Source: Caldifarciminota bacterium
GTDB taxonomy: Bacteria; Hydrothermota; UBA3072
Length of the DNA: 61,175 bases
Reading direction: 5' to 3'
Assembly (NCBI GenBank): GCA_016930175.1
Contig: JAFGHJ010000026.1
Span: forward strand, 1-61,175
This document shows positions 36,678 through 40,912 of the stretch, in pieces (the stretch's first letter is position 1; every line of letters starts with the position of its first letter). A model generated the notes under the pieces. It was not told where the DNA came from. It searched no databases and saw only the letters and a list, made by a program, of their open reading frames with translations. Made by a program: the position numbers and the translations under genes.

Positions 36678-39338
36678 ATGGAAAAAATGGTGTACTTCTT
36701 TGGTGAAGGTAAGGCAGAGGGTAATATTACAATGAAGAAAACTTTAGGTGGTAAAGGCGCCGGCTTGGCAGAAATGACGAATATTGGCGTTCCTGTTCCT
36801 CCGGGTTTTACCATTACTTCTCAGTGTTGTTTATATTACGAGAAACATAAGAAATATCCGAAGGGTCTTGAAGAACAAATAGATGAGAATTTAAAAAAGT
36901 TAGAAAATGCAATGGGGCAGAAGTTTGCATCATTCGATGCTCCCCTTTTGGTTTCAGTACGTTCCGGAGCGGCTATTTCTATGCCGGGTATGATGGATAC
37001 GATTTTAAACCTCGGATTAAATGAAGAAATAGCAAATAATCTCGCAAGTAATACTAACCCTCGATTTGTCTATGACAGTTTTCGACGTTTAATTCAGATG
37101 TACGGCGATGTGGTAATGGGTGTTGAACATGAGGATTTCGAAGAGATAATTCAGCACACCAAGGACAAAAAGGGTGTAAAAGAAGATGCCGGACTGACCG
37201 CAGATGACTGGAAGGAAATTGCCGGTAAATTTAAGAAACTGATTAAAGAGAAAACCGGAAAAGATTTTCCGGAGAATCCTAAAGATCAATTATTGGGTGC
37301 GGTTAACGCTGTTTTTTCTTCCTGGGATAACAAAAGAGCAAAAGAATACAGAAGGATAAACAATATTCCCGGGGATCTCGGAACTGCTGTAAATGTACAG
37401 GCGATGGTTTTTGGTAATAGAGGAGAAGGTTGTTCAACAGGTGTTGCTTTTACGCGCAATCCTGCTACTGGTGAGAATATATTTTACGGAGAATATTTAC
37501 TCGATGCTCAAGGTGAAGATGTTGTTGCAGGTATCAGAACTCCTGGTCCTATTTCACATAAACAAAAAGAGGAATCCGGATCTGATCTCGATGCTTTTGA
37601 AGATGTAATGCCTGAAACTTATAGCGAATTAGAAGATGTAAGGAAAAAGCTTGAGGGTCATTTTAAAGAGATGGAGGATCTTGAGTTTACGGTTGAGGAC
37701 AATAAATTATGGATTCTACAAACAAGAACCGGAAAAAGAACTGCAATGGCTGCTGTAAAAATAGCAGTCGACATGGTCGGTGAAGGCTTAATCGATAATA
37801 AGGAAGCCATTATGAGAGTTAGCCCGGATCAGGTAGATCAATTACTGCACCCTATGATAGATCCTAGAGCAGAGCTCAACGTTATTGCTAAGGGCCTTCC
37901 CGCTTCCCCCGGAGCCGCTTCGGGTAAGGTTGTATTCACAGCCGATGAGGCAGTGGAAAAAGCTAAAGCCGGGGAAAAAGTTCTCCTTGTTCGCCACGTA
38001 ACTTCTCCCGAAGATATCGGAGGAATGCACGCGGCTGAAGGTATATTGACTTCACGAGGAGGTATGACTTCTCATGCGGCTGTTGTTGCAAGAGGTATGG
38101 GCGCTCCCTGTATTGTCGGCGCTGAGGATATCTCAATTGATTATAAAGCTAAAAGATTTACGGTTGGCGATGTGACTGTTAAAGAAGGTGAACCAATAAC
38201 AATCGACGGAACTACAGGCAGGGTAATTCTTGGCGATGTTCCCACTATAGAACCTGAGATTTCAGGTGATTTTCAAAAAATAATGGAGTGGGCAGATGAG
38301 ATAAGAAGGCTTGGAGTACGGGCTAATGCCGATACTCCGCATGATGCTAAACAGGCGAGAGATTTCGGCGCAGAGGGAATAGGTCTTGCTCGAACGGAAC
38401 ATATGTTTTTTGGGGAGGATAGGATACCAGCTATGAGAGAAATGATACTGTCTGAAACTCCCGAAGAAAGAAAAAAAGCTCTCGATAAAATACTTCCTAT
38501 GCAGCGAGGTGACTTTGAAGGTCTTTTCAAAGCAATGGATGGATATCCGGTGATAATAAGACTTCTTGATCCGCCCTTACATGAGTTTTTACCTGAAGAT
38601 AAGAAAACGATCGAAGAACTTGCTAATAATATGGGTATTTCAGCGGAAAAAGTAGAAGCAAAAATAGCGAGTCTAGAGGAAGCAAATCCTATGCTGGGTC
38701 TTCGAGGGTGCAGGCTCGGTATTCTAATTCCTGAGATAACTGAAATGCAGGCAAGAGCTATTATAGAGGCTGCTGTAAACGTAGCAAATAAAAATGTTAA
38801 AGTTATCCCAAAGATTATGATACCTCTTGCTGGAAGAAAAGAAGAAGTCGCTTCTCAGAGAGAACTTATTGAGAAAGTGGCAGAAAAGGTTTTCAAAGAG
38901 AAAGGAAAGCCGGTGGATTACCAAATAGGAACGATGATAGAACTCCCTAGAGCTGCTTTGACAGCTGATAAGATAGCGGAAGTAGCAGATTTCTTTTCTT
39001 ACGGGACAAATGACCTGACGCAGACAACTTTTGGTTTTTCAAGGGACGACGTCGGTAAATATACTCCCGACTATATAGAAAAGGGTATCCTGCCTAATGA
39101 TCCTTTCCAGACACTAGACCAGGAAGGTGTTGGGCAGCTGGTAGAAATGGGTTTAAAGAAAGGGAAGAAGGCAAATCCAGATTTAGAAGTAGGTATATGC
39201 GGCGAACATGGGGGAGACCCGGCATCGATTGAATTTTGCCATAAGATAGGTCTGGATTATGTTAGTTGTTCTCCTTTTAGAGTTCCTGTTGCAAGACTTG
39301 CAGCGGCTCAGGCAGTTTTAAAGGAGAAAAATAACTAA
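36678..39338 (+). CDS. ppdK: Pyruvate, phosphate dikinase
   Basis: An 886-residue enzyme interconverting pyruvate, ATP and Pi with PEP, AMP and PPi. The N-terminal nucleotide-binding domain starts VYFFGEGKAEG; the phospho-carrier His is H466 in GGMTSHAAVVARGMGAPC; the PEP/pyruvate barrel ends with C841 in GICGEHGGDP. Full length. Next to eno in metabolism, not on the chromosome. A terminator follows at 39384. Confidence 0.97.
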   Translation: MEKMVYFFGEGKAEGNITMKKTLGGKGAGLAEMTNIGVPVPPGFTITSQCCLYYEKHKKYPKGLEEQIDENLKKLENAMGQKFASFDAPLLVSVRSGAAISMPGMMDTILNLGLNEEIANNLASNTNPRFVYDSFRRLIQMYGDVVMGVEHEDFEEIIQHTKDKKGVKEDAGLTADDWKEIAGKFKKLIKEKTGKDFPENPKDQLLGAVNAVFSSWDNKRAKEYRRINNIPGDLGTAVNVQAMVFGNRGEGCSTGVAFTRNPATGENIFYGEYLLDAQGEDVVAGIRTPGPISHKQKEESGSDLDAFEDVMPETYSELEDVRKKLEGHFKEMEDLEFTVEDNKLWILQTRTGKRTAMAAVKIAVDMVGEGLIDNKEAIMRVSPDQVDQLLHPMIDPRAELNVIAKGLPASPGAASGKVVFTADEAVEKAKAGEKVLLVRHVTSPEDIGGMHAAEGILTSRGGMTSHAAVVARGMGAPCIVGAEDISIDYKAKRFTVGDVTVKEGEPITIDGTTGRVILGDVPTIEPEISGDFQKIMEWADEIRRLGVRANADTPHDAKQARDFGAEGIGLARTEHMFFGEDRIPAMREMILSETPEERKKALDKILPMQRGDFEGLFKAMDGYPVIIRLLDPPLHEFLPEDKKTIEELANNMGISAEKVEAKIASLEEANPMLGLRGCRLGILIPEITEMQARAIIEAAVNVANKNVKVIPKIMIPLAGRKEEVASQRELIEKVAEKVFKEKGKPVDYQIGTMIELPRAALTADKIAEVADFFSYGTNDLTQTTFGFSRDDVGKYTPDYIEKGILPNDPFQTLDQEGVGQLVEMGLKKGKKANPDLEVGICGEHGGDPASIEFCHKIGLDYVSCSPFRVPVARLAAAQAVLKEKNN

Positions 39339-39383
39339 AAGATTGGGTATAAAATAAAATTCTGTTTTAGTATAATTCTACAG

Positions 39384-39413
39384 ACAAGGGCCTTTACTGG
39401 CCCTTGTTTTTTT
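39384..39413 (+). terminator. Intrinsic terminator of ppdK
   Basis: ACAAGGGCC, loop TTTACT, GGCCCTTGT, then seven T. Shares its core with the terminator at 39654. Confidence 0.88.
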
Positions 39414-39422
39414 CTATAAGGG

Positions 39423-39450
39423 TTGACAAGTTGAAAAGTGTTTATATAAT
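39423..39450 (+). promoter_or_regulatory. Consensus promoter of an orphan unit
   Basis: TTGACA (39423-39428), 16-base spacer, TATAAT (39445-39450): both boxes perfect. It lies ten bases after the ppdK terminator. Confidence 0.85.
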
Positions 39451-39456
39451 GATTAT

Positions 39457-39690
39457 TAGATTAATCTTATATATGACGACATAGAGCAGAGAAATGTATA
39501 TATATGGAAAGTGAGTAGGTTTTTAAAAAAGAAAGGGAGAGAAATACGAACAATAGAATGTTATGTCTAACATTTACATTATTAATTATACGCATATTAC
39601 CAATTAAAATACATTAAGTATTGATATACAAATTCTATTTTTCGTACACCTCTACAAGCAAGGGTCTTTAGGCCCTTGCTTGTTTTTTTA
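39457..39690 (+). ncRNA. Candidate small RNA, family unknown
   Basis: Between a perfect promoter and a strong terminator lie about 200 bases with no sensible ORF and no Shine-Dalgarno sequence. A hairpin AATGTTA-TGTC-TAACATT stands near the middle (39557-39574), and outer segments can pair (TAGAG near 39484 with CTCTA near 39650; ATGTAT near 39497 with ATACAT near 39609). A rod with a central hairpin recalls 6S RNA in size and shape, but I cannot confirm that. None of the gap-filling repeat words occurs inside. Confidence 0.65.
39654..39690 (+). terminator. Intrinsic terminator of the orphan unit
   Basis: A 13-bp stem (ACAAGCAAGGGTC / GGCCCTTGCTTGT with one G-U), loop TTTA, then at least six T. 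Confidence 0.9.
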
Positions 39691-39783
39691 TACAAAAGAA
39701 TTTATCCACTAAGTCTCGAAGGCGCAAATCCTTCGGATTTTTCTAATTTGCTCTTCGTGTCGTTGTGGTTATTAAATAGAGGG
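39691..39783. other. Short gap with a family B-like word
   Basis: CACTAAGTCTCGAAGGCGC (39708) and CTTCGTGTCGTTGTGG (39754) are loose relatives of the CACGAAGACACC words and face each other around AATCCTTCGGATT. No gene. Confidence 0.45.
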
Positions 39784-39811
39784 TTGAAAAAATTCTATTA
39801 GTAAATAAATT
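39784..39811 (+). promoter_or_regulatory. Promoter of the GT28-like gene, leaderless type
   Basis: TTGAAA (39784-39789), 16-base spacer, TAAATT (39806-39811), six bases (TAGTTT), then ATG at 39818. No Shine-Dalgarno sequence. Confidence 0.65.
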
Positions 39812-39817
39812 TAGTTT

Positions 39818-40912
39818 ATGAGAATTCCTACAATCAAAAATCCTAAGATATTGTATTTGTCTCGCGGACGTGGTTTTAGTCATGCTATGTATGATTTACT
39901 TATTCTGGGGGAACTTGAGAATATGAATAAAGATTTGTCAATACTTGTTGCCTCTTATGATAAAGGATATATTTATTTTCTCAATAATGGAATTAAAGCT
40001 TTTAATCTTGAATTAAGACAGGAAGATGAATTATCCTTAAAAGCAGGCTTTAGAATTTGGTCTCTTATTCGCAAGTTTAAACCCAATTTAGTAGTTGCGG
40101 ACGAAGTTTTTATTGCCCTGCATATAACTAAGGCACTTAAGATTCCTTCTATACTTATTACACACTGGTTCTTTGAAACATTTAGCGAGAAGCATCCGAT
40201 AATTCCTGCTGTAAAAAAAGCGAATCATGTTATTTTTGTGGATACGCCTGAATTTCACAGTATTCCTTTTGATTTTGGTGTTCCTCTTACTTTTGTAGGA
40301 CCTGTGATTAAAGAGTTTGATTATACGTTGAAAGATAGAAATAAAGCGAGAGATGAATTGGGCATTGAAAGGAAAGATAAAGTTATTCTAGTTACGACCG
40401 GAGGAAGGCATAAGGATAGAAATAAATTACTGGAGATAAGTATAGAAGTTTTTAAAGAACTGCAGGGGAAAAATCTGAAATTGATACTTTTGACAGGAGA
40501 CCTACTCGAAGAGTACAAGAAGAAATTTGGTGATGATGATAGTATTATTATTAAGGATTACGACTGGAAGATGGATAGGTTAATGGTTGCAAGCGACTTA
40601 GTTATATGTAAGGGTACTTTTATGACAACATGGGAACTTGCATATTTAGGGGTGCCTTCGATATCGGTGCCGGATCTTAGCAATCCTGTCGATCAAGTTC
40701 ACACATACAGAATGGCTGAAAATGATCTTACCATAAGAATAGATCCCCGAAAGTTAAACAAATCAGTTTTACTTGAAGCGGTGAAAAAAGAACTTAATTC
40801 AAAGGTTAGAAATGCGGAAATCCTAAAAAATAGTAGAAGATTTATGAATGGAAGGGGACAAGAGGAAGCGGCGGAAGAGATTAATTATTTTATTAGCAGG
40901 ATATACAAGTGA
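39818..40912 (+). CDS. Glycosyltransferase, MurG/GT28-like
   Basis: A 364-residue GT-B enzyme. The N-terminus KILYLSRGRGFSHAMYDLL has the Gly-rich first loop; the C-terminal half has ILVTTGGRHKDRNKLLEISI and SDLVICKGTFMTTWELAYLG followed by VPSISVP, like the UDP-sugar site of MurG relatives. Acceptor unknown. The mRNA looks leaderless. It overlaps the next gene by four bases. Confidence 0.8.
   Translation: MRIPTIKNPKILYLSRGRGFSHAMYDLLILGELENMNKDLSILVASYDKGYIYFLNNGIKAFNLELRQEDELSLKAGFRIWSLIRKFKPNLVVADEVFIALHITKALKIPSILITHWFFETFSEKHPIIPAVKKANHVIFVDTPEFHSIPFDFGVPLTFVGPVIKEFDYTLKDRNKARDELGIERKDKVILVTTGGRHKDRNKLLEISIEVFKELQGKNLKLILLTGDLLEEYKKKFGDDDSIIIKDYDWKMDRLMVASDLVICKGTFMTTWELAYLGVPSISVPDLSNPVDQVHTYRMAENDLTIRIDPRKLNKSVLLEAVKKELNSKVRNAEILKNSRRFMNGRGQEEAAEEINYFISRIYK

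Follow-up and report, generated by a model that had tools for sequence, protein, structure and literature searches.

A candidate small RNA transcription unit between apparently duplicated terminators downstream of ppdK in a Caldifarciminota bacterium

Bacterial small RNAs (sRNAs) can arise from, or next to, the 3′ UTRs of mRNAs. The 6S RNA, which is broadly conserved, acts as a decoy and sequesters RNA polymerase by imitating an open promoter. A bona fide sRNA gene has been defined as one that has its own promoter and its own terminator, with nothing on the opposite strand, whose RNA is expressed, probably acts in trans and does not stem from premature termination ahead of a downstream gene (Liu et al. 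2018, PMC5826253). We analysed a 61,175-nt stretch of DNA from a Caldifarciminota bacterium (contig JAFGHJ010000026.1; hereafter, the window) in which a short unit following ppdK has its own promoter, its own intrinsic terminator and a free opposite strand. The features of the locus are as follows.

36678–39338, plus strand: ppdK, pyruvate phosphate dikinase (886 aa), the upstream neighbor (Pfam PEP-utilizers_C, PPDK_N, PEP-utilizers); its stop codon, TAA, is at 39336–39338
39342–39418, plus strand: block T1, 3′ UTR and terminator (stem 39382–39409) directly 3′ of ppdK, apparently a diverged direct copy of T2 (local alignment, terminator scan)
39423–39450, plus strand: promoter TTGACA-16-TATAAT (promoter scan, genome-wide counts)
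39457–39690, plus strand: predicted ~235-nt non-coding transcript, from promoter and terminator, with no above-chance ORF
39545–39559, plus strand: left arm of the predicted rod, pairing with 39632–39646 (pair probabilities 0.79–1.0 except one mismatch)
39557–39574, plus strand: perfect 7-bp palindrome, predicted to be unformed in the full transcript (pair probability ~0.01)
39613–39692, plus strand: block T2, pre-terminator stretch with the word CGTACACCTCTA and terminator (stem 39654–39683), counterpart of the sister ppdK terminator
39632–39646, plus strand: right arm of the predicted rod, within block T2 (pair probabilities)
39818–40912, plus strand: downstream gene, GT28-type glycosyltransferase (Pfam Glyco_tran_28_C)

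The promoter scan of the window confirmed a perfect match to a sigma-70-type promoter at 39423–39450 on the plus strand, with the 16-nt spacer that the initial annotation had described. Its placing of this promoter among the best in the window also held, as it is one of three perfect promoters observed (0.07 expected by chance). Across the whole genome, we counted 90 occurrences of the perfect pattern vs. a single occurrence of a reversed control pattern. The motif is therefore a genuine working signal in this organism, and it is one across its family. In the sister genome (same genus), 45 of the 51 perfect promoters were examined. One of these drives a tRNA, a positive control, and such promoters thus serve RNA genes too.

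We inspected the DNA downstream of all 90 promoters, with ORFs and start codons assigned mechanically. At 78/90 promoters, an ORF of 45 aa or more began no further than 200 nt downstream, a further 8 promoters lay inside, or at the beginning of, a longer ORF, and the next ORF was more distant for 4. A terminator preceded any ORF at only two of the 90, the post-ppdK unit and a second site (G000:C43:85099), which supports the earlier description of the stretch as an orphan promoter-to-terminator unit. The other two promoters with a distant ORF (L204 and window 2120) had no terminator ahead of the next frame. This terminator-first layout was found at none of the 45 promoters examined in the sister genome. 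The second orphan unit (C43:85099-85200; L203:201-302) consists of a perfect promoter, ~85 nt and the terminator GGCGGGAGCTTATTGCTCTCGCC with a T-run. We found no ORF and no Rfam match in it, and relatives gave only short, mostly promoter-like matches. As a separate observation, the first ORF started within 15 nt past the −10 box at 19/90 promoters (mechanical start codons), and these near-zero leaders suggest frequent leaderless or nearly leaderless mRNAs.

From the rare terminator-first layout together with the genuine promoter signal, we infer with fair confidence that a ~235-nt transcript is likely made from the unit. The ends are placed 7 nt past the −10 box and at the T-run. Housekeeping RNA polymerase would start near 39457 and stop at the T-run after 39683. 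The product would be an A+U-rich ~235-nt RNA whose purine-rich 5′ part stays mostly unpaired and which further contains a thin rod and a strong terminator.

Folding of the predicted transcript bore out some of the structure proposed at the outset. The T2 terminator is indeed a 13-bp stem (39654–39683) followed by a T-run. The outer segments were predicted to pair into a rod, as had been suggested: 39545–39559 (TACGAAcAATAGAAT) and 39632–39646 (ATTCTATTtTTCGTA) formed 14/15 pairs (probabilities 0.79–1.0), which is somewhat unusual (equalled in 1/300 shuffles). The inner hairpin fared less well. AATGTTA-TGTC-TAACATT is present as a perfect palindrome at 39557–39574, but was predicted to be closed in only ~1% of full transcripts, because the outer rod takes up part of it. 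The 5′ part folded separately, and we observed no predicted pairing of the 5′ end with the 3′ end. Folding stability relative to shuffles was z −3.0 with the terminator and z −0.33 without it; the modelled stability of the full transcript is mostly a contribution of the terminator. A single-sequence fold is, in any case, no evidence of functional structure (Rivas 2021, PMC8250186). The description of the product as an abundant, structured RNA was not upheld, given this little structure beyond the terminator and no homologues for a covariation test.

Comparison of the two terminator blocks points to a likely origin of the unit. T1 (39342–39418) and T2 (39613–39692) aligned over ~80 nt with a score of 73, vs. 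a maximum of 48 in 2000 shuffles, whereas the similarity of the pre-stem part alone was weak (71/2000 shuffles equally good). In the sister species (G001), CTATTTTGTTTCTCGTACACCTCTA and the terminator CAAGGGC..GCCCTTG come immediately after the ppdK stop. No shuffle matched the sister's pre-terminator stretch as well as that of T2 did (0/2000), vs. 30/2000 for that of T1; judged by sequence, the sister ppdK terminator is a better match to T2 than to T1. The word CGTACACCTCTA occurred without mismatch once per genome in the two genomes of the genus compared, after ppdK each time, and in 0/4 other family genomes. Here, ~288 bp (39339–39626) are extra that are missing between the ppdK stop and the terminator in the sister. 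These extra ~288 bp are bounded by T1 and T2, which have the look of two copies of one 3′ UTR with its terminator.

By parsimony, with one other species of the genus compared and with outgroups in which divergence of the 3′ regions prevents alignment, gain of the unit in this lineage would be the simplest history; loss in the sister, through recombination of one terminator copy with the other, is a possible alternative. In the proposed course of events, the unit would have arisen recently between ppdK and its terminator, when the ppdK 3′ UTR and terminator were duplicated to give T1 and T2. The promoter now lies between the copies, and the old ppdK terminator would form the end of the new RNA. 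We also considered whether the middle of the unit derives from a duplicated ppdK coding tail and rejected this (similarity not significant).

Protein relatives of ppdK were present in 20/20 genomes searched. The unit itself was absent from 39 relatives searched at the DNA level, where the sole match was 25 nt in one genome (G004), with no comparable unit in its surroundings. Neither a permissive DNA search of five family members nor a single-sequence covariance model (rod and terminator) run against 10 relatives gave a homologue of the unit; the best matches of the model elsewhere were T1 in the same genome and the ppdK terminator in the sister genome (top match). The left arm of the rod (39545–39559) had no counterpart in the sister species. 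We observed no comparable promoter or unit just 3′ of ppdK in other relatives and outgroups, and the named relatives from the genome collection are too distant to be informative. SRP RNA was recovered in 9/11 genomes by its family model, which shows that searches of these assemblies can pick up conserved RNAs; a curated model of this sort has a higher sensitivity than one built from a single sequence. Because neither DNA nor the structure model gave homologues, there is no set on which covariation is measurable, and the lack of conservation provides no evidence that the RNA is under selection. Lack of conservation in relatives, which the initial annotation had named as a refuting outcome, counts against a conserved family, not against transcription. 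The data agree with the lineage-specific RNA that the initial annotation had offered as one option, since the unit was restricted to this genome among those compared.

Searches of its own genome gave no repeat copies of the stretch beyond short chance matches. A mobile or repeated element was rejected (no further genomic copies; none among phages, plasmids and viral contigs). The gap after the unit (39750–39775) contains words such as cttcgtgtcgttgtggtta, which resemble ttcgtgtcttcgtggt-like words in the gaps of a relative (L013). Such words are absent from the unit, as had been noted.

On balance, we think that this stretch is probably, though we say so with modest confidence, a young, independent, lineage-restricted transcription unit of the sRNA type, born with the duplication of the ppdK terminator. 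If the RNA has a function, its open 5′ part would most likely base-pair with target mRNAs. This is no more than a conjecture, as a small screen for pairing of the RNA against 51 start sites in the window gave no outlier, and ppdK ranked second (z −1.6, not significant). A base-pairing sRNA and a functionless transcript are both possible.

The serious rival, which we consider distinctly less probable but far from negligible, is that the unit is transcribed as a functionless by-product of the terminator duplication, its promoter being fortuitous or recent and the two terminators keeping it harmless. In favor of this reading, the unit was found in one species only, with no structure beyond the terminator, no ORF and a very A+T-rich composition (GC 0.25 vs. 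0.37 for the window), and a promoter newly placed between two terminators could give rise to a transcript that has no function. Against this, a match at 12/12 positions of the promoter hexamers is improbable by chance (0.07 per window), and without selection it would be expected to decay. The opposite and more specific reading, a newborn regulatory RNA gene that took a ready 3′ end from the duplicated terminator, acquired a perfect promoter in between and now regulates some target, perhaps ppdK itself, seems to us rather unlikely. Should the RNA be both transcribed and functional, the locus would be a clear case of sRNA gene birth, with a terminator borrowed by duplication and a promoter gained, and it would lie in a poorly studied bacterial lineage.

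The unit could instead belong to the glycosyltransferase gene at 39818 as an attenuated 5′ leader, with transcription starting at the unit's promoter and the terminator deciding on read-through into the gene. The gene is on the same strand and starts 368 nt past the −10 box. The interval 39690–39818 contains a second terminator-like hairpin (39716–39736, 7 bp) and a 9-of-12 promoter (39784–39811), directly before the gene. Both intervene between the unit and the gene, and a search for an antiterminator against the terminator arm gave no convincing segment (best 8 pairs, several G-U). The sister orthologue of the glycosyltransferase gene has no such unit or leader upstream, and the region before it showed no homology to the unit. 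A leader is, on these data, improbable.

Stronger doubt applies to a small coding RNA or a type I toxin-antitoxin system, in which the plus-strand RNA would be antisense to a 42-aa minus-strand ORF or would encode a 19-aa peptide. The 42-aa ORF (39467–39595) contains a hydrophobic stretch and is the longest on either strand of 39418–39690, but its length was reached in 188/1000 dinucleotide shuffles, in line with the earlier statement that the stretch has no usable ORF. It had no Pfam match and no homologue, and the promoter scan found no minus-strand promoter upstream of it. Plus-strand frames were no longer than 19 aa (e.g. 19 aa at 39511 and 39558), and these had no well-spaced Shine-Dalgarno sequence. 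The opposite strand held only ORFs of chance length and no overlapping gene. We regard a coding or toxin-antitoxin role as very improbable.

Comparison with known RNA families gave no match in the unit at the Rfam gathering level, where the window otherwise yielded only two tRNAs elsewhere; the check proposed in the initial annotation thus came back without a family. Permissive Rfam scans gave only sub-threshold chance matches, the best being the L20 leader (RF00558) at the terminator-bearing stretches (25.1 bits at T2 and 23.6 at T1 vs. a gathering score of 58.7), and other Rfam families were rejected for the unit on these strict and permissive scans. A 6S search of this genome and nine relatives found none up to E 10; its control recovered only 8/14 known genomes, which limits its sensitivity, and with this model 6S RNA in these genomes may be either too divergent or missing. 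That the unit is itself 6S RNA, one of the options suggested initially, is the most remote of the readings: the strong promoter, the size of ~200 nt, the lack of an ORF, some long-range pairing and a slot left unfilled by any 6S elsewhere in the genome would suit it, but there was no match to RF00013 in the region even at E 10, the predicted folds had neither a stem closing the 5′ end against the 3′ end nor a large central bubble, and relatives gave no homologue despite the broad conservation of 6S.

Set beside known systems, the unit resembles 6S RNA in size, intergenic place and strong promoter, and differs from it in having no model match, closing stem, central bubble or conservation. It shares with the L20 leader weak sub-threshold matches at T2 and T1; however, these cover terminator-bearing stretches and score far below the gathering level, and the neighbors of the unit are not rplT or infC. 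Like 3′ UTR-derived sRNAs, the unit lies in a 3′ intergenic region, and its terminator is the counterpart of that of the neighboring mRNA. Those sRNAs are processed from the mRNA or share its terminator, whereas here a separate promoter follows a duplicated terminator. The closest likeness is to bona fide trans-encoded sRNA genes (PMC5826253), which are likewise intergenic, with their own promoter and intrinsic terminator and no gene opposite; the unit differs in that its anatomy is read from sequence alone, it gave no outlying target in the screen, and it showed no conservation outside one species. As it stands, the unit is an unconserved candidate sRNA, and such candidates are familiar from many bacteria.
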